This document shows, piece after piece, positions 850 to 19,118 of a DNA stretch of 64,000 nt (position 1 is its first letter; the number at the start of each line of letters is the position of its first letter). The stretch is from the NCBI GenBank assembly GCA_037833965.1, contig AP031352.1, positions 724,501-788,500 of the forward strand, written 5' to 3'. A program made the position numbers and the translations under genes. The stretch comes from Marchantia polymorpha subsp. ruderalis (Eukaryota > Streptophyta > Marchantiopsida > Marchantiales > Marchantiaceae). The notes beneath the pieces are model-generated. The model worked only from the letters and a program-made list of their open reading frames with translations. It was not told the DNA's origin and made no database searches.

Positions 850-2640
850 CTTTAATGGTCCACGTTAGAGCTGCGTACTTTGTCCGGGCATTTGGTAAGT
901 ACTGCGACTGGCGCTGAGGAAACTTCAGTATTAGAGTCGGGTCAGACTTTGATATTGACCCATTGGCCGTGATATGCTGTACACTTTAGCTCCTCAAGGT
1001 TTGCTTGCATTAGGATTTACTTTCAAGTAATTCTCGGGATCCTTGCATGCATTACACTTCTTGAAAAAATGACTATTTGTGCTGTAAGAACGACGAGGCG
1101 AGGGTCGAAACATGACACACATATGTTTTAATTTTTTTTCAAGGGTATATTGTCTTACCTCATTTCTAGTAAGTATTACACTGTACTTAGAGAAGCTGGT
1201 TATATTTCAATTTCGTTTACCTGGGTTGCTATCCTTGTAACACTAACCGCGAAGAGCAAGAAGAATTTCGATTGTTTTCGTCAAGATTTCATTTTTCGAC
1301 TAATAATATATACTTGTATCACAATAGTGGTATTGTGAGTTGATCCAAGACTTTTGTTAAGCTCAAGTTACTCATATTTCAACTGAAATTTCTATATAGT
1401 CATTTGGAGAGATGATTGTTATCACATTTAGATATGGTTGCATCCAATGTCAATCCTGGTTTTAGGATGTTGTAAAACATCAATGTATTAACTTCATGAT
1501 CATACAGCAATGCATCTGCGATCAAAATTATTATTTTTAATTAAAAAATGTGTATCCTACAAGACAAGGTTTGTAATTGTTGTGTTTCTCCCTTCAGTTG
1601 AATCTTACATAAAACATGAAATCGCCATCATCATATTATTCAATCAACATGTCTGCATGTGTTATCTGCTTGAAGAAAAACATAGACATCTTGACTGATT
1701 TTAGAAACAAAGTCTTTATACAAAACACACCAAATACAATAGATTCAGATAGAAAAACATGAAAACAAAGTAAACATGATGCATATACCAAAATAAATAA
1801 CTTATTCAATACCAGTTGCAATATTTAATGGCAAGAAATCAATCTAGATTAACAGACTAATTCAAAGTCACTAATTTTATTTCGAAAAAGAAATTATAAT
1901 GATCAAAATTTATATGTAAATACCATCTAATGTCAAATTTATAATATTGATTGTAAAATAAATTTATAATTTAGAAATAATTGTATCGATGTTATTTTTG
2001 CAAAATAATTTATCCTCTAGTGTTGATTTTTTAAATTCTAAACACATACATTATTGATAGTTTTGTAAAGCTTAAAATATTTTGAACTTAAACTGCAAGT
2101 CCCAACGAATTAGAATTCTGCAAATTTGATAGACCAGCCATATGATTAATAGACTTCTTGTATATGTTTCATTAATTCATCAAAATTCATATCAATATTG
2201 ATATTTTCAAGAATCAATGATATTTTTTTGACATTGATATGATCATGAATCACTTTTTTAAAGCAATATATAAAATGATTGAATATCAAGAGCTATACTT
2301 TCAAGCACTAAAAATATAATCTTTCATATACATACAAGTAAATATGTATATTTGGGATACAAGTAGAATATTTTTATAATCAATGCATCGGTTTGGAACT
2401 GATCAATCCGTGCAATAAACGAAACGTTTTTGTATTTATGATAAAACTAATGCCATTTAGTATTTTGTTTGCTTTCACATTTAAATGTTCACATAATGTA
2501 TTCCTAAGTAGTGAGGAAATTTAAAGAAATATAATCATAGCGTATTAAAGATACAGTTTTTGAAATAAACCAAGCAAACTCGTTTTATCTTAACTTACAA
2601 AAAAATTCAAGATCACATGATAATTTGTTCAATTGTATTG
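850..2640. other. non-coding stretch, strongly AT-rich from about 1,130
   Basis: I see no gene here. From about 1,130 to 2,640 the sequence is visibly AT-rich, with many short A and T runs and only short chance ORFs. It resembles the other AT-rich blocks in this window (19.1-20.2, 48.1-50.6 and 59.9-61.6 kb). Confidence 0.6.
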
Positions 2641-3590
2641 TCATGTAGTTTCGAGTCGGCTCACGCAGTCTAGGCACTTACTATATTTAGACGTGGAGTT
2701 AGGGTTCGGGTCACGAGGGGTATACAGTCGGGGACGGCTCAAAGAACGTTAGTTCTTCGAGTCGAGCCTGAAAGCGTTGGGAGCGTAGAGCGACTTTCCC
2801 CTTTGCGTCGACCTGGATTCTCCGAGTGTGGAGTGGGTTGGGCTTGACTCATGTTTGTGACGGTAACGGTTTGTTGCCATTAGGGTTATTGACCGACGGG
2901 AATTCCAGTGGGGAATCTCCCGTTTATTTCACTCGAAAAACTCTCGACGTTTTTGTGTGTAACCGTTTTACGTTCTGTTTTGCCTCTTCGTGTTTTTGTC
3001 GTGTGTTTCTCTCTTTTGTGGTTTGTTTATACCTCTGGGCAATTTTTGTAGGTTTTTGTACTTGAGAGTATGAGGAAATCATAGTTTTGAATCGAGAAAT
3101 AGGTGCAGAGAGATTCTCAGATTTGATGTTCGGAAGTAGGGATTTTGAAGATTGAGTCGGACTCTGAAAACTGAAGTTTCAGGAATTCAGTTTTGTTTCG
3201 TGTGGCATCGAAGGGCACGGTAGAGGTTTGGGTTCAGATTTTGAAACGCTGAAAAGTGCTTTTGATTCACTGGAATCAGTGACAGAAATACTGGGAAAGA
3301 TGTTGGATTTCGGTTGGTAATATTTCCACGGGAAGAATCAGTCCGAAGCTTGATTTGGTTTGTTCGTTTGGTTCGCGGGACGAGGCTGGACTGCTGTGCG
3401 GTGATTGCATCCTCTGAGAACTTGCAGTCAGCACACTCTGTTTGCCCGAAGATGGAAATCTCAAAAGTATGCGTTCGAGAAATTTCGTGAATTGACAGGA
3501 ACACTCGAGGTGATTAAGATCCGACTGTACCACTATTTCGAAAACGTGAGGCGTCACTTCCTTGCGCACACAGGGTTATCAATTGCATGA
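2641..3590. other. more GC-balanced, T/G-rich non-coding block
   Basis: Composition changes sharply at about 2,640 from AT-rich to mixed sequence. Short ORFs occur in several frames, but none looks like a conserved protein. It may be the end of a decayed repeat; I could not find a matching second copy in the window. Confidence 0.35.
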
Positions 3591-3599
3591 CCTGTCGAT

Positions 3600-4090
3600 T
3601 CTAGCAGAGAAAACGCTCACATTGAATTGCTCGAAGTCGGCGGCCTGCTTCTTCGCAGCCTCGGGAGTCACCAAAGCAGCGTTGAGCGTCTCAATCACCT
3701 TGGGATGCTTGTACTTGTACTAAACGCAAGCATAGGAGTTTATTATGGCAGTGGTAGCTGAATTCACCAACTGGCTATAAGTGTCAGCTCGGAAATCCGT
3801 CAGCGCGCCCAACAAAGAGCGGTTCAGACGCAGGTTCCACACCATCTAGATGCGAATGTGGGGACTTAAGCTTCTCTGTATTTGACCCTTCACTATTTCC
3901 AACCGCTCCTGTAACAGATCTACAATCGGTGTCGAGCGAAGAACAGGTGGCCTTGCTCGTCGGACCAAATTTGCTAGTGTCTGAGGAGGCATCTTTGAAA
4001 GAAAGCTGGCGAAATGTGTTCAGAGTCTTACTCGCAGAAGGTGGTCTTGCGGGAGGCTTGCTTGTAGAGGGTGGAGGCGGAATCTAACTA
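3600..4090 (-). pseudogene. possible decayed coding fragment, family unknown
   Basis: Minus-strand translation gives protein-like pieces: one containing STLYKQASRKTTFCE (about 4,085-4,035), one beginning MPPQTLANLVRRARPP (about 3,990-3,850) and one containing NRSLLGALTDFRADTYSQ and KHPKVIETLNAALVTPEAA (about 3,840-3,610). The pieces follow each other in order but do not form one continuous frame. Charged and hydrophobic residues are spaced like helices. I cannot name the family; a decayed host gene or decayed mobile-element gene is equally possible. Confidence 0.25.
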
Positions 4091-4309
4091 GTCAGATTCG
4101 AGGGGTAAGGAAACAAGTGCCGCTTCGATATTAAATACTTCCGGGGCTGAACCTGCCATGGAGTGGCGTAGTCTGGATTATTGAATGCGCAGCGAGGCGA
4201 CCTGCAAAAGTGTTGGCGGTGATCGTAAGCATGATCACCAGTCCCTAGAGAAGCTGTGGCAATTGCTTTCGTGGGCAACTTAAACTGTTGATGTGCTACA
4301 CCACCACAT

Positions 4310-4360
4310 TTTGTGAGAGTGTAAGTATAAGAGTGTAAGTATAAAAGAGGAGTAAATATA
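4310..4360. repeat. short imperfect tandem repeat
   Basis: The unit agtgtaagtata occurs twice in a row, followed by related purine-rich units with TATAA cores. It has no evident gene association. Confidence 0.5.
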
Positions 4361-4611
4361 AGAGGAGATCTACATGCACTTCACCTCTACGGGCTCGCTA
4401 TGTATACTTCACAGTTATTGGAGTTTGGTTTACAGGCCAAGGAGTAGTATGTGAGTATAATCCAGATGTGGAAGTTTGAGCCTAAATCATACTTCTGGTC
4501 CTGCTAGTGAGAGTACACGTACACATCAGATGACCTCATCAGAGTCATCAAAGACTATTCGCTCATTCTGGGAGAGCACTGCGGAGGTCCTGCCAGCTTT
4601 TTGTCGTCCTT

Positions 4612-4619
4612 TATAAATA
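4612..4619 (+). promoter_or_regulatory. TATA-box-like TATAAATA
   Basis: A good plant TATA match, followed about 30 bases later by pyrimidine-rich sequence. No convincing ORF follows within 800 bases, so this may be a non-coding or dead promoter, or chance. The 4,360-5,080 interval otherwise shows nothing I can support. Confidence 0.25.
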
Positions 4620-5774
4620 CGTCTCGGTTTGTGTTCGGTAGTCTCCTCTTCTATCCACCACCTTGCTTAGGAATGTTTCTGTTCCTTCGGAGGTGAAGCT
4701 CCGGCAGGCATGCAGGCAGAGTGTGAAAGAGAAAAAGCATCCTCCTCATTGAAGTTGTTAGGTAATACTCGTGCTGGCAGAAGGGAGATAAGACGAAAGG
4801 AGGAAGTACTCCATTAACCTCCTTTTGTATCTCCCGTGGGTCTATTCACGTCTATTCCCCATCGTCTTCATCGCGTTGAAAATGATGGTTGACGCAGATT
4901 AAAGAATTTGAGAAATCAATCTTTTTTATGTTGTAATGTATTGTATCAGGTGCTGTACCTGATGGGTATGTGTGGTAACACACTTTTTGTTTTTTTGCAG
5001 AATTTAAACAATTTTAGAAAACTAGTACCGAAGCAGTGTTTGTAGTTAGAAAAGGGTACGTTAAAAAGAGTGGATTGATGAGATCGGCACGAGGACACGA
5101 AGAATCACGTAGTCGAATGTACCAACGCCAATGTCTTCGGCGCCTTCGGCAAAAGCTCCTTTTCTGAGGTGTCTCTACTCACGCGCCTCCAGCGTATAAG
5201 GAAGCTACGCTTCCGGTGCAGACACCTAAGGAGGAGGTTTTGCTAAAGACGTCAGGAGAAGGGCCCGGACCTCTGAAGGCGTCCGACCATGAGTGCGCCT
5301 TCGGCGATGCGCCGCTAGCGCGGAAAGGGAAAACCTTCATAACGATCGGGATACACGGTAGATCCAGTGGGTTGAAGTCGCATTAGAAAGAGCTCGGGAC
5401 GCTCGTTCTAACGAGCCCAAGAGCGTCGGAGATGGATCAGGGACGGAGAAGTTATGAGCGTCGGAAAACTCGTAGCCGGACATGCGCCGTTCGCGCTAGG
5501 GTTCACAGCCGGAAAGGATTCCCGTACGCCCTCGGCGATGCGCCTTCGGCGGAATCACGCGCTCATAGGAGGAAACCAACTCAGAGTCGGAAGCGCCTTT
5601 GGCGGCTGTTCATGGAAGGAAAGCGCCGGTCGGATGTACGCCTCCGACGTGGCGCTGACGGCCGGATGCGCTGGCATGAGTTGCGCTGGCGGATATGCGC
5701 CGGCAGCAATGGACGAGGCATAAAGGACAAGATAAGCGGTACGACTGCGCGCCGGCGTAATTCGCTCCGACTAG

Positions 5775-8700
5775 ATGTGCGCCTCCAGCAAGGCGCCGAC
5801 GGATAAGGAACGCACCAGCGGCAACACGCCTCCGGTGAGGGACGGATTAGGAAAAGACAACATGGCCGACGTATACCCTGCGGCGGACTCGAGTCCGGAA
5901 GGTGGCGGCGGCGGGAGAATTCAACATTTACGCATGCGAATGCGCGCAGTGCGGAGACGTGAATTCGCGCATGCAAGGGGCGAACCGTTAGGCCGTATAG
6001 CCGGCTGCGTACGTTGTAACCAGTCAGAACGTTGGACGTTCTTGAAATCGGAGAAGAAAAGACTGCGCTCCAGTCTCATTCTCTCATTCTTGATTTCGCG
6101 ATTTCCAGTTTCCAAGATTACGCGCAAGAGCGGAGCGACCTGCAGTGAGAGGAGAGAGTGCGGAGACGAGTTGCGCAAGGATCTTGGCAGACCTTGGAGA
6201 GAATTGCGAGTAGCGATCTTGAGCTTGAGCGCAGAGAGAGTGAGCAGTCAGTGCTTGAGCGACCGACGCGCAGTGGCGATTGTGAGAGAGCGAGCGAAAG
6301 GGAGAACGTTTGTGTGTGCAGGCAACGCAATGTCGAAGGTTCCCCAGCTGCGAGTGTCTCCACTCAGGGTGCCGCAGATCGGTCTACGCGCATTTCAAGA
6401 TGTGCTGCTGAGGCTGAAGCTCGATTTTCTCCTGTGGGGATGGAACTGGACATGTTCGGAGATGGTGCGCGAGTATCTGCAGGAGAGACACAAGCCCTCT
6501 CGCGGATTCCGTCCACATCCAGAAAGATGGGACATTTGCAACTGGGCGCAGGTGTTGGGCAGGTGTGCCGGCGAGGAAGGGGATCTCCTCTTCGAGGCCG
6601 ATAGCGTGAAGGTGTCCCATGAGGAAGAAGTCTCCTACAATGAGCTCTTCAAAGTTGCCAGGCATCCCAAGAACGGTTTCCGGACACGGGATTACAAAGA
6701 TCGATTGCGGAGAAATGTCGCGACTGCATTGCTGCAGATATTGCAGCCGACCAAGACCGCTTACATGCATGGTTGGCAGGTAGAATTTGTGGAGCTAGTG
6801 TTGTCAGGAGCTCCAGTGCATTGGGCACGGCTCCTGTGGAAGGTGACACGCCAACATGCGCAAGAAGAGAAAGGAGGAACCCTCAATCATCTCTCGCCTT
6901 ACTTGATCGTGTTTTATCGGGCGATGGGATGTTTGACAAATGCTGAGAAAACACGGTTTCCGCAGCTGACCCGGAACTATCCAGGTAGATATTCGAGGGA
7001 GGCCGAAGTAGACACGGATCCGGACGAGGAACCTGCCAGTACGCCTCCGGCTCCGGCTCCGGCTCCAGCAAGAGCAGCAGAAGAACGTCGAATTGAGCGC
7101 ATTCCGCGAAAGCGGAAGTGGGATGAGAGACCTGAGGACAGGCAGCCGGAAGTGCCAGCTGCGCCGACTCGTGGTCGGCCCACCCCCGAGCCTCACAGTC
7201 GACCAAAACAGAGGGCACGCAAAATGCCAACTGGTACTGAGGAGACCGGGCGAACTCCGACCCGGCGGAATCTCACACAGGAGGAGATAATCGCGCAGAT
7301 TCTAGGGAAGACGACAGATACCTCTGCACAGAAGGCACCACGGCCTTCGGGAGGAGATGGACGGACTGACAGTCGGCCGACTGCGAGTCGGATGACTGAA
7401 GGCCGACAAGCGGAAGGAAGGCCAACTGAACGGCGCGTTGAACCGGACAGCAGGCCGGAAGCAGAAGAGAGTTTGGCTGACGAGCCAACAACCCTCAGAG
7501 GGTCGTCTTCGGCGGAAGGCACTTCTGGGAAAACGCCACCAGCAAGCATGCCAAGTGGAGTCAAGACGCGCAGGGTGTATCCGACTCCCAGTCGGACAAC
7601 TGCTGGTCGTCCGACTGCGAGTCGGACAACAGAGAGTCGGCCGGATTCGCCGACTGCGAGACGGATGGGGCCGACGACCAGTGTGCGGACGCCTTCGGCG
7701 GACGCACCTTCAGCGAAGACACCTTCCGCGCAGATTGCGCCAGAAGGGCAGGCAGCAGAAGCGGGCGGTGCAAAAGTGACAAGAGTCACTGCGGCGTCGA
7801 CCCCTTCGGAGACCGAAGATCGAGCCGGAACAGGGGCTCAAGTAGTGGGATCTCCCACTGCCCTGGATATTTTAGCCGGCAGCGGAGCGGCAGTCGCAGC
7901 GGAAGCTGCTGCGCGCCACAGTTCCAGGGAGTCGCCAAGGGATTCGGTGGCGACTGAAATCCTCGAGACTGAGGATGAGACGAGCTCGGAAGAGCAGGAA
8001 GCGGATTCGGTGCAGAAAACGCCAACAGGGGTGCTGTGCGAACAGATAGTCCCACTCCTGCGATATCTGGATCGCAAGACATCCAAATACGCGAGTGCTT
8101 TAAAACCGCAGTCTTATGTGGAGACTATCAGGAGAAGGACGAGGAGCAAGGTGGCAAGGTGGGCCTCTAGGTGCGGAGTATATGTGGATAGGAACACCGC
8201 CCTCCGACAACACCTGGCGGTCACACAGAAGCTATACCAAGCCTTGCAGCAGCAGAGGGAGGATGCGGCGACGAAAAGTCAGGCGGATGCCGAGCTAATA
8301 CGGGCAAAGATCGAGTCGGAATTGCAGGAGGAGCGGAGACAAAACCAAGTCCTAGCAGCCGAGCTTGCGCGCCAGACGCGCGCCTTAGAAGAAAGTCAAA
8401 GAGCCCGCAAGGAGGATGAGGAGTTGTTGCGCAACTTGCAATCCGAGTGCTCGGATTTGAGGGCACAACGTGCGGAAGCAGAAATGTAGTTGGCAGAGGT
8501 GGAGAGCAGCTGCAGGGCGCGAGGAGAGTTGGCGACACAGGTGACTCGTTGTCTAAAAGGATACGCCCGTTGGGAGGTGGCAGCTCAAGAGAGGATCACA
8601 CTCAGGGAGTTCGAGCTTCGGGCGGCGGCATTGACGGAGGGTGACAGTCGGAGTCGGCGGCGAGTGGCGAGGAAATTAGAAACCTTCTTGTCGGATGCGC

Positions 8701-8891
8701 GCGACACTATGGCGCACTTACAGGCGGAAGTCACCGCAGCGCTCCGACGCCTGGGGTTGCGCAGCCGGTCGGAAGACTGGCAAGGAAGGGACAGCGAGCG
8801 GAGTAGTCCGGCGCGCAGGAGGCGCAGCACCGGATCAGCCGAGTGCAGTAGAATAGTTTGGTTTCGCGCAGATGCTGCGAGTAGTAGATAG
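5775..8891 (+). pseudogene. large ORF of a liverwort multi-copy family; possibly element-borne; looks broken about once
   Basis: The protein is about 1,000 residues if read from the first ATG; a more likely start is the ATG at 6,330 (MSKVPQLRVSP), where family-like sequence begins. Order of parts: a conserved globular region of about 220 residues (about 6,330-7,000) containing NWAQVLGRCAGEEGDLLFE and VHWARLLWKVTRQHAQEEKG; a long Arg/Pro/Thr/Ser-rich disordered middle (7,020-7,950) with RPTASR-type repeats; then a coiled coil of Glu/Gln/Arg heptads (about 8,200-8,480) and a conserved tail (YARWEVAAQERITLRE; RRRVARKLETFL; RLGLRSRSED). From memory, unverified, similar predicted proteins are abundant in Marchantia. 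No catalytic motif is visible. It could be a structural protein of a mobile element or a host family spread by duplication. I treat this copy as a fossil. Confidence 0.5.
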
Positions 8892-9594
8892 GATAGCGTA
8901 GTGCTAGTTAGGATCTTTGAGGGTATAAAGTAGATCAAGGCGTTTTGCCTTGGGACTCTTCCAGTTTCGGAAGTGCAGATTAGGAACTCACTTTCTTGAC
9001 GTGTTTGTGCATTTTGGTCCTGGCACCACGTAGAGAAGCTGCAGCATAGCGAAGTTACCGTATGTTGTAGTTGAAGGCCTTCGGCTGAATGTTCAGAGCT
9101 AGTACCCGGTTAGAGACTTGAGTAGTGCGGATCTGCACCTGCGGGTGATTTCTGATGCTCAGAGCCGGCTGCGAGTTAGATACTTGAACAGTTCCCCCTT
9201 ACTCCTTCGAGTGACATATCCTGATTGTACTCCTACGGGAAGTTTCCCCTGAATGCCAATGTGAAGTTTCATTACTTCGTGTAAACCTTGGTTTGTAATT
9301 CAGGTTGTGTGTGTGTTACTGGATCGTGTTTCAGTAAGTTCTTAGTCGGGTCTGCACTCCCTGCGTTTGGTGTGATAGTCGAGGGTGACGTCCACGGCGT
9401 ATGTAGAGGCTTCGTTCCGAAGTGGGAAGTCCAGTCCGGGTACCCTACGCTAGTTCCTGGCGGAAGGGCAGTAAAAGCCGGAGTGGGAGGCACTACCTGC
9501 AGAACCTCTGAGTGAACTTTTGAGACACTTTCCTCCTGAAATCCGAAGCGGAGGTCCTGACCGACCTCCGAGTTGTGCTTTTTGCCAGTTTCAG

Positions 9595-9618
9595 GTGTGT
9601 GTGTGTGTGTGTGTGTGT
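9595..9618. repeat. (GT)n microsatellite
   Basis: About twelve uninterrupted GT units. Confidence 0.9.
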
Positions 9619-9770
9619 TGAGTGACCACGCTGTACCGTGCATCCTCCGAGCATCCTCCGAGTTGAGATCCTCCTCCGAGTCGAGCCTCCGAGTCGAGCA
9701 CTGCAGTATTTCTGGGAGTGACAGTCGCCTAGAATTCAAACTCTACAAAAGTCTGTTAAAACGTGACATT

Positions 9771-10575
9771 TTACTCTGTGTGTTGCCTCTGTCCCTGTGG
9801 GTTCGATCTTTTTACCACCATACTGCAGTTTTAGCCTTTGGTGGGTTATTACAATATGTTAGCGCATGCATCTGTGGGAGATGCAGTCGTAGATGAGATA
9901 CGGTGAAGCAAGATTATGGTTGCAACTCTGACATTTAAGGTCTGTGTTATGTCTCGGGAAGAGTGTGGTTGCAGCTTGGACATACTACATGACAGTCCCA
10001 GCGGCGTAGACAGTAAGAGTATAACACCTCTTTGCAATACTTTCTGAAGATTAGACTTATTAGTAGCTAAAAGTGCACTCAATGTGAGTGTAGATAACAA
10101 CCTATCATGGGCGGATGTAGGTAATGAAAAGTTGAGGGGAGATGAAATTCCATAAACTTCTGTTTAAAATGTTGTTGGGAGCTAGTAGATTACCTTTGAA
10201 GCTCTTGTAGCAGAGTTATAGTTATAGCAGAGTTTTCATCTATTCTTCTCAGGTTAGTATTCACGTCGATGTCCAATGTACCCTCAGTTAACTAGGATGG
10301 AATACTTTGAGCACAAGGTTTGGCAATTATTTCCTGTGCTACGCATTTTACAGTTGACTTTATATAGGTGTTAAAACTCTCTTCAGTTATCGTATCATTT
10401 TACTGTGGTAATTAAACATCAGTATAAGTTATGATAAAAAGGTTACTGGTGATCCTGTAACACTTTGTAATAGTTTATAGTTAAACTATTTTTAGTTTCC
10501 AATTTAGTGATCTAGTTTACAGATACTCTGTAAACAATCCTTGTACACAGTGAAGTGTTGACGTGTGAAGGGAAA
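9771..10575. other. non-coding stretch between the GC-rich block and the small acidic ORF
   Basis: No ORF with protein-like character is visible. The sequence is mixed and slightly AT-rich, and may be the 5' flank of the ORF that starts at 10,576. Confidence 0.4.
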
Positions 10576-10935
10576 ATGCCGCTTGGAGAAAAAGCGGACG
10601 ACAGTGATATACAAGAAATCCAGACAGTGGAAGTCATCAGCAACAAGGAACGTGATCAGGGGCAGGAGGTGACGGTGCAGCCTCAAGTAGAAGAGAATAC
10701 GGTAAACACTGCTGTGGTAGAAGAAAAAAATTCTGGGTTTGATTGGGACGAGGCACTAGCCGTAGAAAAACTTCTAGAGGAATCTGGCCTAGAGTACAGG
10801 ATATGTGAGGATGAATTACTCGACCTTCCGAAGGATATTGCTGATCATTTGAGAGATGTTCAGTATGTTCAAGATTGTCTTTCAGAAGAAATTCTTGTAC
10901 TAGAGAAATTTCTTGATAGTCTTCCAAAGGATTGA
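10576..10935 (+). CDS. small acidic hypothetical protein, 119 aa
   Basis: I do not recognise the family. The first ATG (10,576, context gaaaATGCC) opens a frame of 119 codons ending TGA at 10,933. The protein is very acidic, with a Glu/Gln/Val-rich N-terminal half without obvious structure. The C-terminal half looks amphipathic-helical: FDWDEALAVEKLLEESGLEY, then DELLDLPKDIADHL and VLEKFLDSLPKD. The LPKD motif occurs twice. No signal peptide, membrane segment or catalytic motif is visible. AT-rich sequence with TATATATA follows at about 11,037, and a purine tract at 11,117-11,155. It lies between two mobile-element blocks, so it may be a small host gene or an accessory ORF of an element. Confidence 0.35.
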   Translation: MPLGEKADDSDIQEIQTVEVISNKERDQGQEVTVQPQVEENTVNTAVVEEKNSGFDWDEALAVEKLLEESGLEYRICEDELLDLPKDIADHLRDVQYVQDCLSEEILVLEKFLDSLPKD

Positions 10936-11116
10936 TAGCAACTACCTGTAGCGTTTAGGCAAGAAGTACTGAAGGGATCGGGAGTTTGCACCCGGTCTCA
11001 TTACCTGTAAACTTGATGTGTTGAAAGCATTGTAAATATATATATGACATAGTCAAAATATTGAGCTTTCAGTGTGTAGTGTGTTTGTTGAGGGAAAGTG
11101 TGACCCCTGTGTGAAG

Positions 11117-11155
11117 GAGAAAAAAAAAAAGAAAAAAAGAAAAAAGTAGAAGAAG
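11117..11155 (+). repeat. purine-only (A/G) tract
   Basis: About 39 bases of only A and G, mostly A, just upstream of the retroelement block. It could be a retrotransposon polypurine tract, a poly(A) remnant or simple sequence. Confidence 0.5.
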
Positions 11156-11709
11156 TTTTCAAACACTTTTTGTTTGCAATTTGGTGAAGAGGGCATCATA
11201 GGCAATAGAGGCCCACGTAGATGGAGGACAATGGAGATCGAATCGGGATTGCGAAGCGATGCGATGTCCCGTGTGTGTTGACTTGTTTTGTGCTGTGTTT
11301 TCTTTAGACTGGAGAGTCGTTGCTAGCTGTTTGCTTGTGTTTGGATCCTCTCCAGTCTTGCTTCCTGGTGCGCGCCCGTGTAGGGGTGACGCTGATTTCC
11401 GGAGTAGTTTTACTCCTGTGTGCTGGCGATAGGGGGCTCGACTTGATCACCGGCCGGCATATCTATGTTTCTCTCACGGTGAGACTGGAGTGATGACCAG
11501 TAGACCGTGAGAGTCTTCTTGCTGTGATGACAGGTTAGGTTGCCCATACCCCTTAGCTAGTAGGGCTAGAGTAGCTTAGTGCGGCACGACGTTAGGGGCG
11601 GATTGGGTTATTGGGTGGAGATCTGGCAGTGGTGCTAGTTGAGGTCTCGTTATCACGGAGCAGTCTAGTGATCCTGTTGAGTACCGCGGTGGATTTACGC
11701 GGAGTGGGT

Positions 11710-13270
11710 TGAGGTATCGGCTACCTTCACCTATTTCGCCAGTTATTGCGGAGCAGGACCAGAGTGTTGCAGACACAGAGTCTTTGGTGGTGATATCGTC
11801 TACTGTTCCAACTCCATTGATTTGGGACATAGACGGGATGTACGGGGCCGTGAAGGGCCCTCGACGTTTGGTGGGCACCATCCAGTGCCCATCTGGTGCA
11901 GTGGGCACCATCGAGCTCGATGATTTTATTCAGGAGTTCGACACGTGGTGTGATATGCAGTTTCTGTGTAACTCCACGTTGTTTACACCCTTCTTTGCGT
12001 GGAAGGGGTTATTCCAGCATTTGGAGGGGCCTCCCATGGACGATTATCATGAGTTTGGGAGAGATTATGCTGCGGAGATTGATGCATGGAGGCGCCATTG
12101 GTCTCCTAACTACTTATTCATTACCCAGGGTGGGGTGGGTACCCGTGGAGGTGCAAGTATCGGCATCAGCGGAGGTGCGAGTAGTAGCATCAGCGAGGGT
12201 ACCAGTGGAGCAGTTGGCGCAACTGGTACTAATACCAGCAGCGGTACTGTTAGCATTGCCGGTGGCAGCACGAGGGGAGATGCTAGTGGCGTACCTTCGT
12301 TTAGCCCCATTCCTGAGTTTTCCAGAGATTGAGGAAGAATTATCATGGGGTGAAAACGGAGAAGTTGAGTAGCCTCCAGGAGTTTGAGCGGAAGACTGGT
12401 GAGAGTCTTCGTGAGGCATACACTTGTATGTGACGGCTAATCTCAGTTACTCACGGTGTGACTGAGGCACAGGCTGTCCAGTACTGGTATTGGATCTTGG
12501 ACAGAGAGTTGCGGAGGAGAGTGCGTGATGCTACTCTCATGAGCGACTCATCACCCACATTAGCCCATGTGTTTGCTCTTTCTGAGAAGATTGAGCTTAA
12601 CATGGTGGAGGAGAGGGTGGTGACGTCTACATTTGCGAGGGACACGACCACTACTTCGCGTATCCCACATAGCCCAGTACAGTCTCGCCCCATAAGTGGG
12701 AGTCGTGGAGGTCATACACGACATCCTTCAGGTCACAGAGAGCCTAGTGCGCGGCCACCACTGCCTTCATTTTTGGGCCAGCCACAGGAACCGTCATGTT
12801 GGACATGCGGAGGTAGTCATATGAGGAAGGATTGTCCCCAGGAGCGAGAGGGACAAACTCCACATGCTAGACCACAGCCAGCACAGATGACCTGTGATCA
12901 TTGTCATCGACTGGGTCACCCTCGAGAACGTTGCTTTGACCTTCATCCTAAGTTGAGATCTGGAGGTAGAGGTCGTGGAGGTGATGCTCCACGAGGCCGA
13001 GGTGGCAGAGGTGGTAGAGGTACCGGGGCCATGGAGCGTACCGCAACGAGTGCTACTTCCGTCACAGAGAGCGCTATGGCTGCTCGGATTGAGCAGTTGG
13101 AGCAGAGGCTTGCTGCTATGGCTAGTCTGGGGGCGAGCACTTCCACATCTTACGAGGGAGAGGATTTCTCCTATTTGGCCAGTGCAACACAGGTTGAGGC
13201 ATCAGTTGCAGTGACCAGAGGTGGTGCTCGCACTTCAGAGCCACGTGATGCGACTGTGGAGTTGGACCCT
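11710..13270 (+). pseudogene. gag region of the Ty3/gypsy fossil (capsid-like part, two zinc knuckles, RGG tail)
   Basis: The N-terminal part contains capsid-like helical sequence (ELDDFIQEFDTWCDMQFL, about 11,910-11,965) followed by a Gly/Ser-rich linker. The nucleocapsid part has two CCHC knuckles: CWTCGGSHMRKDC (about 12,797-12,835; CX2CX3HX4C) and CDHCHRLGHPRERC (about 12,893-12,934; CX2CX4HX4C). An Arg/Gly-rich stretch (GGRGRGGDAPRGRGGRG) follows. Zinc knuckles of this type package the element RNA in the family. The domain is broken as part of the fossil. Confidence 0.8.
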
Positions 13271-13699
13271 TAGAGGGATGAGAGTGGACGTCAGTCTAGA
13301 CTTCCCCAGTCCTTTTTGTTGTTAGAGGTGGGTAGCAGTTCATCTATGAGAACTGCACCGCCTAGTGACACTAGAGTGAGAACTGAGGTTCTTACATCAT
13401 CTGTTGTGGACGCAGACGTGCCATCTAGTGCAGTGATGCGGATGGCCACTTCAGTCTTGCGATCTCCATTGTTTTCAGCCACGGAGTTGATAGACTCTGG
13501 TATTGATTTGGCTCGAGTATTTCGGGTAGCAGCCACGTCGTGTGATCGTGGAAGAGTCGCTGCTACGAGTGCCGAGATACGTGAGGATACAGTTGAGGAC
13601 CCATCCTCAACGTCTACATTGTTCGAGGAGACGACTTGGCAGGCCGCAGGGGCGAGGATGGAGTCCTTACCAGCTCGCGCAACCATTGATCGCGAGAGT

Positions 13700-14200
13700 A
13701 TTGTTCCAGGTGTACGTATGGTGGACAATCGAAGTGGTCTATTTCGGTTAGTGAGTTCTACTGGACAGGTGTATGTCCCAGCCAGAGTTTTGTTGGATTC
13801 TGGTGCACAGCCCTTGATGTTGGGCAAGGCTGCATGCATTAGTTTGGGCATTTGGAGGTCAGAGTTGGAACCTTGCCCATTCCAGATCCAGACATCCCTT
13901 GGTGGCGCCAGCGATAGGTCTTACTTTATGACCAGGGAGAGCATAGCGGTGCAGTTGAGGCATGATCACCCTCATGATAGCTCGCAGTTTGGAGTTCGTG
14001 CTGTGGTTACATCAGCAGAGTCATATGATGTGCTTGTTGGTGGAGTGATGTTATACCCGATGGGGTTTCGGATGGACTATTGGACGGAGACTGCCGCATA
14101 TCGTCCTGGTTGGCAGTCCGGAGATGGACGTCTGAGCGAGCTGCCAGTGAGATTTATTTCTCGGGATCGACCTCTTGGATCTTCATCAGCGGTCTTGGCA
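13700..14200 (+). pseudogene. aspartic protease domain of the Ty3/gypsy fossil
   Basis: The retropepsin signature LLDSGAQPLMLG occurs at about 13,788-13,823. It is followed by the expected beta-rich sequence and a flap-like and C-terminal segment (SYDVLVGGVMLYPMGF). In the family this enzyme cuts the gag-pol polyprotein. It lies between gag and the methyltransferase. Confidence 0.7.
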
Positions 14201-14499
14201 TCTGTTGCGGGTTTTAGCGGAGTGCTTACCTGGCCCGATGACTTGTTGGAGGGGAACATGTCTGCCGACGATACCTCACTCTACGAGGATGTGGAGGAGG
14301 TTGTGAGTTTCACAGCGGCAGTGACTACACCCTTTGATGTTCCACTGTGGAGTTCGTGCCAGGCACTATAGTTGGAGGCTGATAGGTTGGTGAAAAAGGC
14401 TTGGAGTGAAGCCTCTTTACCAGCAGAGCCAGAAAGGACTTCAGCTGATCGGCTAGTTGGTGGTTCTAGCGCATTGTTTCCATTGGTTACTACACCTAT

Positions 14500-15650
14500 T
14501 GCATGGGAGTATTCCTCAAAGGGCGTTTGTTTGCTGGATCTTTTTGGTGGGATCAGCACAGGTTTGGCTGCGGTGTTGCAGTCAGGTATTCTCGTACGGA
14601 GATACTTGTATGTAGAGAAGGACTAGACTGCACGTCGAGTCTCTTCACGACATGTTGCACAGTTGATGCGGCGTTTTCCTTCGTTATTGCCGCGATCAGC
14701 TGTCCGAGGATTCAAGAAGGTGTTGCCTTCAGACATTTTGTTGCTGAGGGCGCCAGACCTTGACCGCGTTGGCCATATTGATATGGTGATTGCGGGCTGG
14801 CCATGTCAGGGACACACACGCGCTGGACATGGAACAGGGTTGCATGATCCCAGATCTATGATGTTTTGGGAGATGATGCGAGTGTTACGTCATCTCCAAG
14901 TGCAGCAGACACGTTCTCCAGCATACATTCTGGAGAACGTACCATTGTTGGATGACACTCGGGCCCAGTTGATGGCGAGTGTCCATCAAGTCCGACCATG
15001 GATTGGATCAGCAGTATTGTTGGATGCTGCGAGGGTTGTATCACGTGCTCATCGTGCACGTTTATGGTGGACCAACCTTTTGCCACGTGAGATATTGCGT
15101 CATGCCTATGATTCTGTGCAGCGTGATCCTACACTCACCGTTGACAGTATCTTGGATGTTTTCCGACACTCTCAGGTGGTGAGAGTTGCTGATATGTCGT
15201 CTATGGCATTGATGAACCGCGTAGGTCAGCCTCGAATGGCTTTACCTACGTTGGTCAGTTATCCGGCATCACATGCATATCGTGATGGTGGACCTGGACT
15301 ACTGTGGGATAGTACAGTATATCAGTTGGTGGAGCCCAACGCTGATGAGAGAGAGCGTGCGATGGGATTTATGACTGGTGTGACCGCAGCTGCTTCACGT
15401 CGTCAGGTTTTGGGTCAAGCTATGGACTTAAACTGCTTGACGTGGATTGTGAGCTTGGGTTTGGCGGAGCAACGTCGTTTGCGCATTGATTTAATGGTTA
15501 GTACACCACTTGTTAGCTCATTGCCTACCAGGACGGTAGTGACAATGGCTAGGGGCGACAGGCGAGATATTCGTCATCCTTGGAGTTTATGGGACGTGAC
15601 GAAAGGACTTGCCAAAGTTGCAGCCCATGCAGTTGGAGAGGATTTTCATG
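14500..15650 (+). pseudogene. DNMT3-like cytosine-5 DNA methyltransferase domain inside the retrotransposon
   Basis: The C5-methyltransferase motifs appear in linear order. Motif I (AdoMet binding) is LDLFGGISTGL at about 14,534. Motif IV has the catalytic Cys in GWPCQGHTRAG at about 14,795. Motif VI is ILENVP at about 14,930. A motif-VIII-like AHRARLWWTNL lies at about 15,047. A motif IX/X-like region with ERERAMGF and RRQVLGQAMD lies at about 15,345-15,430. AHRARxxW and the FxGIxTG form of motif I match DNMT3/DRM enzymes better than DNMT1 or CMT. The linear order I to X matches DNMT3, not the rearranged plant DRM order. In the family the enzyme transfers methyl from AdoMet to cytosine C5. 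Placement between protease and RT suggests it was made as part of pol. It is part of a broken element. Confidence 0.85.
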
Positions 15651-15849
15651 TGGAGGTGGCTACGAAGGAGGGTATGAAGAACCCTTCTTTGCAGGATGTA
15701 GCGTAGCAACCATTGACAGTGTCGCCTCCCTCTAGTGTGTATATGGAGGAGGAATGGAAGCCATTGATTGGTTCCCAGATCACATGAGGAGAGAGGCGAC
15801 GATTGACACGATTCCTACGAGACTATAGGAGTTGTTTTGCCTTTAGTAT

Positions 15850-16600
15850 GAAGGAGTTGGGTGCGTTGATTGGACCCGGTATACGGATAGAATTGGCTAG
15901 TGATACGCCAATCTTCCGTCGTCCTTATCGATATAGTGAGATGGAAAGAGATTTGATTCGGAGTAGGACGTTGGACCTACTGGATGTTGGATTAGTGGAG
16001 TTATCGCATGGTGAGTATGCGTCAGCCACTGTCATGCCGGTGAAGAAGGATGTACATGGCAACTACACGGATAGGCGCATGTGTGGAGACTACCGTCCTA
16101 TCAATCGGCAGACGAAGTCCGATAAGTATGCCATGCCTACACCTGAGTAGATCTTCAATGTGATGGGACATGCGAGGATTTCTAATACTTTGGATCTTCG
16201 GGCAGGATATCATCAGTTGCCAATTTGGGAAGAGGACAAAACCAAAACAGCGTTTTGGGGCGTTAACTCCCACGGCAAGGATTGTTTGTATCAGTGGCGA
16301 TTCTTACCCTTTGGGTTGAAGAATGCACGTGCCGAGTTTCAGAGGGTTATGGACAGAATCCTAGCGGGGCTGGATTTTGTCAGATGTTACATTGATGATA
16401 TCTTGGTGTTTAGTGACACTGTGGAGCAACACCAAATACATTTGCAGATTGTGTTTGAGCGATTGAGGGCTCATGGTTTGAGGTTACATCCTGGGAAGTG
16501 TAAGTTCTTCCAGGAGAAGGTTGAGTACTTGGGTCATGTGATATACCCAGGTGGTTTAGGAGTTCAGCAAGCAAAGGTGGAGGCTATTGCACGCATCCCT
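15850..16600 (+). pseudogene. reverse transcriptase domain of the Ty3/gypsy fossil
   Basis: Conserved RT blocks are visible: the fingers start (IELASDTPIFRRPYRYS), RMCGDYRPIN, LDLRAGYHQLPI, FLPFGLKNARAEFQR, and the catalytic box CYIDDILVFS at about 16,385-16,414. The later block LHPGKCKFFQEKVEYLGHVI is typical of Ty3/gypsy. Confidence 0.9.
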
Positions 16601-16789
16601 CGTCCCACGGATGTGAGTAGAGTTCGTGCATTCATGGGTTTGGCGAACTACTACCGGAGGTATGTGAAGGGGTTCAGTGCTATAGCCAAGCCTTTGAACC
16701 AGTTGCTGAAGTTAGATCAGGAGTGGCAATGGGGAGATGAGCAGGAGAGAGCTTTTGTTGAGCTCAAGGCCAGGTTGGTGGCCGCTCCC

Positions 16790-17200
16790 ATTTTGAGGAG
16801 ACCTATCAGAGGTCGTCCATACCAGTTGCACACTGATTGGAGTATGTTGGGACTAGGGGCGGTGTTGACGCAGCGTGATGATGAGGGCAAGGAGTTTGTG
16901 GTTGCGTACGCTAGTCGTTTGAACAATGCAGCGGAGTTGCGGTATAGTTCGTACAAGGGAGAGTGCTTGGCAGCGGTGTGGGCTGTGGCACACTTCAGGT
17001 GTTACTTGTTTGGTACGCAGTTCACCCTTGTTACTGATCATCAACCGCTCAAGTGGTTGATGGAGTCCGACAAGCTTACGGGGAAGCTTGCACGGTGGGC
17101 TCTCATCTTACCGGAGAACGACTTTCAGGTAGTGCATAGACCTGGAGTTGCGAACCTAGATGCCGATGGTTTGAGTCAGAACCCATGCACTAGCCAGGAG
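16790..17200 (+). pseudogene. RNase H domain of the Ty3/gypsy fossil
   Basis: LHTDWSMLGLGAVLTQRD, YSSYKGECLAAVWAV and LVTDHQPLKWL carry the Asp, Glu and Asp positions of the retroelement RNase H. The domain directly follows RT, as in all Ty3/gypsy elements. Confidence 0.85.
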
Positions 17201-17449
17201 GATGACACTGGAGCTAGATGGCATGGTGAGGTTGACAAGGAGATGGTGCCTGGTTGGCATGCATCTGCCTTCATGTGTTGGTTATGTGGAAACTCAAGCA
17301 AAGAGAATCATCTGACATCTTACTCTAGTCAGAGAATAGATGGTCGATCTTTAGATCTTGAGGTTGAGGATGGTGGTGTGGATCAGCGTGATGTTCACGA
17401 TGATGCATTGGTGTTGGAGTTCCTACGGACCAGCATGGTGCCAGGCACA

Positions 17450-18480
17450 GTGGGTGCGAAGGAGCGAGATCATGTTCTCCAACGGGCGAAGAGATACCGA
17501 TTGGAGGGATCACATGTTCTCCGAGTCTGGGAGGACGGTAGGGTACAAGTAGTACCACATCCAGCTCAGAGAGCACGCATTGTGAGGCATGCTCATGAGG
17601 AGTTGGGACATTTTGGAGTGAAGCGTACATATAGCTTACTCCTTGGTTAATATTGGTGGCGTGGTATGCATACTCAGGTACAGCAGTCGGTATCACGTTG
17701 CATGGTTTGCGATCGGGTGAGGGCATCATTCAATGCTTCGACACCAGTGTTACATCCATTACCCATCATGGGGTTGGGTTACCGTTGGAGTTTGGACTTC
17801 GCTGGACCACTACCTTTGACTGTACGACATCATCGGTATGTGTTGGTGATGGTGGAGCATTTCTCCAAGTGGATTGAGTTGGTAGCATTACCTGACAAGG
17901 CGAGTGAGGGAGTAGCGTATGCTTTCCTTGAAAGAGTGCTTAGTCACTATGGTGCACCAGCTGAGGTGTTGACCGATCAGGGGACGTAGTTTCAAGGTGA
18001 GTTTCAGGTCTTGTGTGACGAGGCGCTGATTGATCATCGGACCACATCGCGAGATCATTCACAGACGGATGCTTTGGCTGAACGTGTTGTACAGACGGTG
18101 AAGAGGGCGTTGCGCAAGTATGGCCTACAGAAAGGTCATCTTGGGGACTGGGATATCTAGCTACCGTGGTTGGCCATGGGATACCGGTTCAGTCGTCAAG
18201 CATCCTTGGCTTCCTTCTCACCATATTTTCTATTGTAAGGCCGAGATCCAGACTTGCCAACATCGATTCGTCGTGAGTCTAGCGAGGTGGTGAACCTTGA
18301 TGACCCGAATATGTGGGTGAGAGTATGTTCTCAGCGTGAAGAGATCTTTCAGAGAGTTATGCCTGCAGCGTTTGAGAATCTTGCGATTGCTCAATATAGA
18401 GATACATTGCGATATGCAACCATTCGGGGAGGAGGTTATCGACCATCGATTCGTAGATTTCATGTGGGAGACTACGTCTA
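17450..18480 (+). pseudogene. integrase domain of the Ty3/gypsy fossil
   Basis: The HHCC zinc finger begins at HAHEELGHFGVKRTY (about 17,589) and its Cys pair is in RCMVCDRV (about 17,698). The core follows: WSLDFAGPLPL with the first Asp (about 17,790), LTDQGT with the second Asp, and a Glu in the LAERVVQTVKRALRK helix. A C-terminal SH3-like segment (RFHVGDYVYL) comes before the PHD finger. Confidence 0.8.
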
Positions 18481-18679
18481 TCTATAGCAGACTGCACCGA
18501 CGACATTGGATGTGACGGTGGGACGCACAATCTTGCGAGTGCGGGAGGTGTTACCTTCTGGAGTTCTCATGTTGGAGGGTCGTGACGGCGTTGTTTGGAA
18601 GGATCATGTGCGCAATTGTGCGCCATGCCATCTCCGAAACGTAGATGGCACTATGGACCCAAGCTTAGCGATAGTACGT

Positions 18680-18835
18680 GCTGGCTTGAGGTGCATGTTA
18701 TGTGGGTCAGTTGGTCAGGCGGCCCGTATGTTGGTGTGTGATAGGTGCTCTAGGGGATGGCACATGTCGTGCCTAACTCCGCCTATCGATGTTATTCCGG
18801 CTGGACGATGGGTTTGTCCTCGATGTACTTCATAG
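18680..18835 (+). pseudogene. PHD finger at the 3' end of pol of the Ty3/gypsy fossil
   Basis: The spacing is a textbook C4HC3 PHD finger: CMLC, then CDRC, SRGWHMSC and WVCPRC. It lies where chromoviruses carry a chromodomain, after integrase. PHD fingers usually read the H3 tail, so a role in choosing chromatin targets is a reasonable inference but not shown. It closes the coding region of the broken element. Confidence 0.85.
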
Positions 18836-18989
18836 GGGTAGATGACTTGATCTTCACATGTTATGAATTGCAGATAGGCGACTAACGATGGGGCGACATA
18901 GCACCCGGCCTACTGGTTCGCGCACCCACAAAGGAATATAGCATGTAGTTGTAGATAGGGCTACATGGGAGTCAGAGGGACCTGACCGC

Positions 18990-19118
18990 CAGCTAGGGGG
19001 GCGAGTTGTGACATTTGAGTGTGTACTCTCTCACGCCTTATATGTGTGTATGTGTGTGGGTATGTGAGTAGCATGTCAGCGATGTAGAGTGTATAGCGAT
19101 ATGTATTCGCACGACACA
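18990..19118 (+). repeat. candidate polypurine tract and short 3' LTR of the Ty3/gypsy fossil
   Basis: A G-rich tract (taggggggcgag) is followed by a segment starting TGTG (19,007) and ending CACA (19,118). This is the usual place and shape for a polypurine tract and LTR. No matching 5' copy was found, so the LTR call is tentative. Confidence 0.45.

Follow-up and report, generated by a model that had tools for sequence, protein, structure and literature searches.

Whether a bryophyte retrotransposon can encode a DNA methyltransferase of its own, and whether such an element is a single accident or a member of a family, is the question raised by a stretch of 64,000 nucleotides from Marchantia polymorpha subsp. 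ruderalis (contig AP031352.1, positions 724,501 to 788,500), referred to here as the window. The original prediction, made from the sequence alone, had placed at 11250..19118 a broken Ty3/gypsy retrotransposon containing gag, protease, C5-methyltransferase, reverse transcriptase (RT), RNase H, integrase and PHD in one plus-strand series. Judged by its domains, the window element is indeed a decayed Ty3/gypsy-type retrotransposon with its own full-length DNMT3-type C5-methyltransferase domain in a bryophyte host. With a probability of about 0.8, we read it as a member of an autonomous Marchantia family of Ty3/gypsy type, in which the methyltransferase would be the last part of the Gag precursor and a PHD finger would end the integrase, and which would work by the mechanism proposed below. 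All window coordinates refer to the plus strand.

Domain content of the window element

The Pfam search was run on the window's own open pieces, and all matches lie on the plus strand in the order DNA_methylase (1e-9), RVT_1 (1.3e-27), RT_RNaseH (8.5e-34), integrase and PHD (PF00628, 1.5e-11), which agrees with the predicted series. The integrase is represented by rve (8.4e-10) and by two Integrase_H2C2 matches (1.8e-4 and 2.1e-4) that are both below the curated cut-off, a stop splitting this domain. For gag and protease the open pieces of the window yielded no Pfam match, and both were assigned by motif and position, from CCHC-type knuckles and a DSGA motif recognized by eye. In an open copy the Retrotrans_gag match is weak (0.012, below the cut-off), and protease families are annotated in some relatives (P0028, P0032 and P0033). 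The window translation contains the methyltransferase motifs FGGxSTG, PCQ, ENV and RAR, which we take to be motifs I, IV, VI and VIII.

The gag region (11643..13273), which is open in ORF1 (open reading frame 1) of copy L042, has a frame change between 12332 and 12434 and a premature stop at 13271; its first piece, 11643-12332, is in a different frame from the sequence from 12434 onward. It is followed by the protease region (13274..14497, premature stop at 14369) and by the methyltransferase domain (14498..15490, bounds transferred from L042, one premature stop at 14624). The ORF1 stop with its context TAG-CAACCA, found also in other copies, is at 15704..15712, and behind it lie the RT core with its YIDD motif (16172..16543), RNase H (16814..17110), the integrase zinc-binding domain and DDE core (17561..17986) and the C-terminal PHD finger (18692..18826). 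In the window as well as in L042, RT is thus followed by RNase H and then by an integrase that has both zinc domain and DDE core, as in Ty3/gypsy elements. A single frame, 12434-18835, contains 12 stops, and because those at 15704 and 18833 are the counterparts of the ORF1 and ORF2 ends in open copies, ten are premature, in line with the prediction of about ten interruptions. A chance origin of the arrangement is excluded, since it recurs in other copies, and insertion of a methyltransferase gene into this one copy is ruled out by the presence of the domain in many copies.

An abundant family with two reading frames

The genome searched comprises 241.5 Mb in 9 contigs, and the copy counts obtained from it are lower bounds. 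A DNA search with the methyltransferase stretch of the window yielded 446 candidates, of which 40 were scored; all 40, the window itself included, cover the full query at 92-100%. A search with the PF00145 profile gave 290 candidates and 123 scored matches, including host genes such as DNMT3 at L001, and 25 of the 123 sit in open frames of at least 1300 amino acids. Many host copies thus carry the methyltransferase between protease and RT, as had been sought, in one open gag-protease-methyltransferase frame. L010 and L039 are one insertion. L002 was considered as a further host methyltransferase, but its plus strand as printed holds no methyltransferase frame and it was excluded from the trees. 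The proteins nearest to the element methyltransferase region are Mp_* proteins of M. polymorpha subsp. ruderalis, and the MARPO gene model P0009 matches one element copy at 98.3%. Judged by the many copies in long open frames, the methyltransferase-bearing family is young and abundant in Marchantia, the window copy itself being a fossil.

In L042, ORF1 (1361 codons) contains gag, protease and methyltransferase, and ORF2 (1042 codons) contains RT, RNase H, integrase and PHD; both are in the same frame, with TAG alone between them. The stop and the next six bases read TAGCAACCA in 33 of 34 distinct copies (35 rows), window included, and TAGCAACAA in one. UAG-CARYYA is the leaky-stop context of tobamoviruses, and we infer that TAG-CAACCA before the in-frame ORF2 is a leaky stop and that ORF2 is produced through read-through. 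As ORF2 would need read-through, the methyltransferase would be made at Gag dosage. Among several relatives, methyltransferase and RT are found in single proteins.

Termini of the element

The two copies read end to end, L042 and L044, consist of a repeat A1 (292-293 bp), the coding part, a repeat B1 (119-120 bp), A2 and B2, and L039 has B1-A2-B2 at its 3' end. A 531-bp B1-A2-B2 query gave 40 scored copies (L042 included), the best of 787 candidates, all at full length with one match a base short; as single-B copies rank lower, the share of the arrangement in the family is not measurable from these best 40. The element begins with TGTCATG and ends with GCACGACA, or ACACGACA in one copy. TG/CA termini and 4-bp target duplications were found in all six non-window copies with both ends read (CACA, GGTT, TGTC, ATGT, AACC and CAGT, the first being weak as it lies within a CA run); target duplications of Ty3/gypsy elements are short, 4-6 bp. 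The identical long terminal repeats (LTRs) at both ends that are expected of Ty3/gypsy elements are absent from L042 and L044, which show A1 at one end and B1-A2-B2 at the other. We therefore class the element as gypsy-type by its pol domains and not as a standard LTR element. As read from these copies, the family order is A1-leader-ORF1(gag-protease-methyltransferase)-TAG-ORF2(RT-RNase H-integrase-PHD)-B1-A2-B2.

The repeats are identical in L042 (A1 versus A2, 0 of 292 differences; B1 versus B2, 0 of 119) and nearly so in L044 (3 of 293 and 0 of 120, respectively), so that both insertions are recent. A 12-nt site just after A1 of L042 is complementary at every base to a stretch of the same length within A. 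In L044 the A2 copy of this stretch matches the site, the A1 copy having one transition, and in the window the site has changed. This complementarity may reflect self-priming of the kind of Tf1, a self-priming retrotransposon type.

The 5' leader of L042 bears no relationship to that of L044 over about 2 kb. A segment of it (L045, element positions 1164-1635) is 96.7-100% identical to six exons that follow one another in the host locus L047 on C8, and five of five exon junctions fall at GT-AG introns of that locus; the element has thus taken up a copy of a spliced host transcript. The leader of another copy (L046, 1000-2990) is a mosaic of pieces that also occur at several other places in the genome, where an intron possibly separates two of them.

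Extent and decay of the window copy

Repeat A1 of the window (2639..2924), which begins TGTCATG, is 93.7% identical to the A repeat of L042. It is followed by a first leader part (2925..4970, with 2928-3217 common to L044 at 87%), an unrelated 4.9-kb repeat foreign to the element (4971..9853) and a second leader part (9854..11642, common to L042 from 10295). The 3' terminus is a single repeat B (19004..19116) ending in GCACGACA. A1 is likely to be part of the same insertion as the body, in view of its position, its orientation and the leader start behind it, and the element probably spans about 2639-19116 with the 4.9-kb repeat nested inside. Without the latter its length is about 11.6 kb, as compared with 11.9 kb for L042 and 11.5 kb for L044. 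Of the bounds first proposed, the 3' end was thus placed correctly, near 19116-19118, and the start was not, as it probably lies far upstream at 2639. No direct repeats of at least 40 bp were found at 5000-26000 of the window; ordinary LTRs are not seen around the element because its repeats are split and its leader holds a nested insertion.

Genome-wide, the nested repeat has 3512 first-look candidates, of which 17 were scored, with 96-98% identity over its length and the same bounds. It holds an open frame of 904 amino acids at 5775-8489 that matched no Pfam family. Positions 8504-9603 of the window match both insertion flanks of L042 at 98%, and L042 therefore seems to be inserted in a copy of the nested repeat, the window representing the corresponding empty site. 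A frame of 133 amino acids in the window leader (10534-10935), also open in L042 (130 amino acids) and L044 (133 amino acids), is possibly a small accessory ORF.

Decay was assessed at 7961 sites with agreement among the other available copies (at least three of four). At 173 of these sites the window departs from those copies, and 107 of the 173 changes are C-to-T or G-to-A. By assignable context these affect 25 of 555 CG, 22 of 560 CHG and 47 of 2325 CHH sites, an excess of CG plus CHG over CHH (p 4.6e-4); the same bias is found in L039 (p 4e-5), and the young copy L044 shows little change in any context. By this pattern the bias records earlier methylation at CG and CHG sites, and the window copy, interrupted and old, is a family member that decayed largely through C-to-T changes.

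The methyltransferase domain

In profile searches of PDB and in fold searches, the solved structures closest to the L042 domain are DNMT3A/B, and among solved C5-methyltransferases DNMT3 is nearest both in sequence and in fold. The motif order is the ordinary one (I, IV, VI, VIII and a C-terminal GQAMD-type motif); the permuted order of rearranged methyltransferases (DRM) was not found, and this class was set aside. Catalytic positions are retained in the aligned set of element methyltransferases. The ratio of nonsynonymous to synonymous substitutions (dN/dS), computed across the other copies for the methyltransferase and also for the region corresponding to the protease, and for the nearer pair L010/L042, indicates purifying selection on the methyltransferase (p 3.5e-9 in the pair).

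A viral home of the element was also considered, and one degenerate pattern searched in viral_contigs gave zero matches. The best fold match in BFVD is a phage methyltransferase (E 8.3e-18, template-modelling score 0.64), in a different library and hence not directly comparable with the DNMT3 match; judged by predicted fold, a phage-like donor of the domain may be considered.

Relatives and origin

Beyond Marchantia, the methyltransferase search found Sphagnum fallax (53%) and metagenome proteins (31-69%). The ORF2 search gave 326 hits, 120 of which were listed; among the matches listed, the named sources are Calypogeia, Riccia, Klebsormidium, Closterium, Chara, Tetrabaena, Haematococcus, Tetraselmis (by identifier) and Chlamydomonas eustigma, together with two pseudoscorpion proteins without methyltransferase. 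A scan of 157 proteins found the methyltransferase in 74, of which 36 also carry RT. In these the domain either precedes RT or stands between RNase H and integrase. The latter order occurs in Haematococcus, Tetrabaena and C. eustigma, but it does not mark all chlorophytes, as P0136 and P0112, whose Tetstr1 identifiers we take to denote Tetraselmis, have the domain before RT, in P0112 as a fragment.

The original prediction had proposed separate RT and methyltransferase trees and a search of other lineages, and both were carried out. The methyltransferase trees leave out 13 of the 74 domain-bearing relatives, which cover fewer than 240 profile columns. In the careful tree (39 rows), 26 element domains are separated from 13 DNMT3-type rows, Marchantia's own DNMT3 among the latter, by a branch with 100/100 support in a tree unrooted by other C5 families. 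The quick tree (76 rows) shows the same split, with 63 element rows against 13 and long branches for P0136, P0106 and P0040. The element rows include Klebsormidium, Closterium, Sphagnum and Haematococcus. Within the element methyltransferase group (100/100) lies P0086 of K. nitens, which in the midpoint-rooted quick RT tree also belongs to the larger group of PHD-bearing elements. Eight rows with the domain next to integrase, among them P0139, which lacks RT, form one group in the careful tree (99/96), and 11 RT-first rows fall within one 13-row group of the quick RT tree (99). Methyltransferase and RT distances are correlated (Mantel r 0.785, 21 proteins with both domains, 0 of 9999 permutations). 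These trees fit one old capture of the methyltransferase with joint descent with RT, not private to Klebsormidium; horizontal spread of the element among green hosts may have contributed.

Six relatives (P0037, P0101, P0105, P0111, P0126 and P0155) have an extra C-terminal block with the pattern DPWAG...SPWF. Its predicted fold (four sequences, predicted local distance difference test 78) weakly matches class I S-adenosylmethionine methyltransferases (best E 3.8e-4), and no noteworthy match was found among PDB sequences; it is perhaps a second methyltransferase. In P0105 (Tetrabaena) the DNMT3-type methyltransferase looks degraded, and RT, integrase and PHD remain.

Alternative explanations

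Several observations weigh against an autonomous family working as proposed. Read-through, priming and methylation of complementary DNA (cDNA) are deduced from sequence; the window and L041 have a single B, whereas L042, L044 and L039 have B1-A2-B2; the window flanks (GTAT and CATT) differ and form no matching target duplication; and L039 has 11 differences in 119 sites between its B1 and B2. The unlike flanks would also suit two separate insertions, one contributing repeat A at 2639 and the other the body that ends at 19116, which we regard as unlikely given that the family leader start follows A1 in the right orientation and that the length without the nested repeat is near that of L042 and L044. 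The single B of the window and L041, and the LTR-like size of B plus A, which begins near TGTGACA after a purine-rich tract, would likewise be expected if the split repeats were an artefact of an ordinary LTR element that had suffered a deletion or been inserted in tandem. This is hardly credible, because in all six non-window copies with both ends read the 4-bp duplications lie exactly outside A1 and the last B and no B precedes A1, and because the 40 scored B1-A2-B2 matches, the best of 787 candidates and no measure of how common the arrangement is, are full length.

With regard to the enzyme, constraint on the protease region of the L010/L042 pair is not significant (p 0.095), and the CG and CHG decay is explicable by host methylation, the enzyme of the element not being needed. 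The domain could be a passenger, act on RNA or bind nucleic acid, with no cDNA methylation; methylation by the element domain is read from sequence, P0105 carries a domain degraded by eye, and a tested dinoflagellate enzyme, that of SymbioLINE, gave no de novo DNA methylation in yeast, according to the discussion in PMC5890265. The retained catalytic positions, the purifying selection and the nearest solved relatives, which are the DNA enzymes DNMT3A/B, make this improbable. As to origin, the metagenome relatives come without host names, and the methyltransferase trees compare the elements with DNMT3-type rows only and contain no dinoflagellate elements, which limits what they can say about the donor. 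Klebsormidium, liverwort and chlorophyte elements might each have taken DNMT3 from their own host, a reading that would suit the two positions of the domain and the account in the 2018 paper (PMC5890265) that the K. nitens lineage acquired it independently of dinoflagellates. Repeated capture is nevertheless very unlikely, as all element methyltransferases (26 in the careful and 63 in the quick tree) lie on one side of the fully supported branch, the 13 DNMT3-type rows with Marchantia's own DNMT3 on the other, and methyltransferase distances track those of RT.

Comparison with known systems

The kind of element is already known. KnitGypsy-Dnmt3 of Klebsormidium nitens is a gypsy element with a DNMT3-type domain, with DIRS-like repeats according to a figure legend and under purifying selection (Ka/Ks <0.2) (de Mendoza et al. 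2018, PMC5890265). The Marchantia element resembles it in gypsy pol content, in the DNMT3-type domain within the polyprotein, in the DIRS-type repeat arrangement and in the selection, and shares methyltransferase and RT ancestry with the K. nitens protein P0086. It differs in its land-plant host, its high copy number and the position of the methyltransferase, which here stands with Gag before TAG-CAACCA, whereas P0086, a partial gene model, joins it to RT. It also has a PHD finger, a term absent from the main text of PMC5890265. The present trees indicate that the charophyte case extends beyond K. nitens; they do not bear on its independence from dinoflagellates.

SymbioDIRS-Dnmt3 and SymbioLINE-Dnmt of dinoflagellates also encode cytosine methyltransferases, and de novo CG methylation is reported for the DIRS enzyme, but they use a tyrosine recombinase or the machinery of long interspersed nuclear elements, with an RT unrelated to that of the gypsy element (PMC5890265). 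The repeat order A-coding-B-A-B is that of DIRS/PAT elements, but the Marchantia element, unlike these, has TG/CA ends, target duplications and an integrase with zinc domain and DDE core; no Pfam match to a tyrosine recombinase was found in ORF1 or ORF2 of L042, where rve is present. Chromoviruses are Ty3/gypsy elements with a chromodomain after the integrase. They likewise end the integrase with a domain of chromatin-reader type, in place of which the Marchantia element has a PHD finger, in addition to the methyltransferase and the permuted termini.

A 2025 paper mentions DNMT3 members in streptophyte retrotransposons. As the original prediction had supposed, no bryophyte case of a methyltransferase retrotransposon was found in the literature searched, supplementary material being outside its scope and a row in a supplementary tree being possible.

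Proposed mechanism and significance

In the proposed mechanism, occasional read-through of TAG-CAACCA would give ORF2, leaving the methyltransferase in Gag-like excess over RT. Minus-strand synthesis would be self-primed, the 12-nt stretch in A pairing with the site just after A1, and the internal B1-A2 junction would allow both termini to be restored, the integrase cutting at the B/A junction. The methyltransferase would travel in the particle and methylate the new cDNA, which may then pass as host-like or settle quietly in chromatin read by the PHD finger. Its capture would have happened a single time, in an old gypsy lineage of green plants, and from then on it would have descended together with RT. 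A more specific version, which we offer as tentative, is that a PHD-bearing gypsy lineage captured a DNMT3-type domain before the chlorophyte/streptophyte split, that the domain moved within the polyprotein and was kept by selection, and that in Marchantia its leaky-stop position would give Gag-like amounts and many copies per particle, so that the cDNA would already bear methyl marks when a circle-like intermediate is opened at the B/A junction for insertion.

In plant cells, DNA methylation is the principal mark directed at transposons, and an element that keeps a methyltransferase under selection is therefore a direct puzzle. The published cases found of elements with a methyltransferase are from dinoflagellates and one charophyte alga (PMC5890265). 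The trees presented here suggest a capture shared across green plants and not one private to Klebsormidium, and the termini show that a DDE integrase works here with split repeats, which are known mainly from elements with a tyrosine recombinase. As Marchantia is amenable to transformation and editing, tests of the catalytic residues, methylomes and transposition assays are feasible in one organism. The copies are many and include very recent ones, so that a well-known laboratory plant can serve to study why a genetic parasite should bring along the mark that normally silences it.

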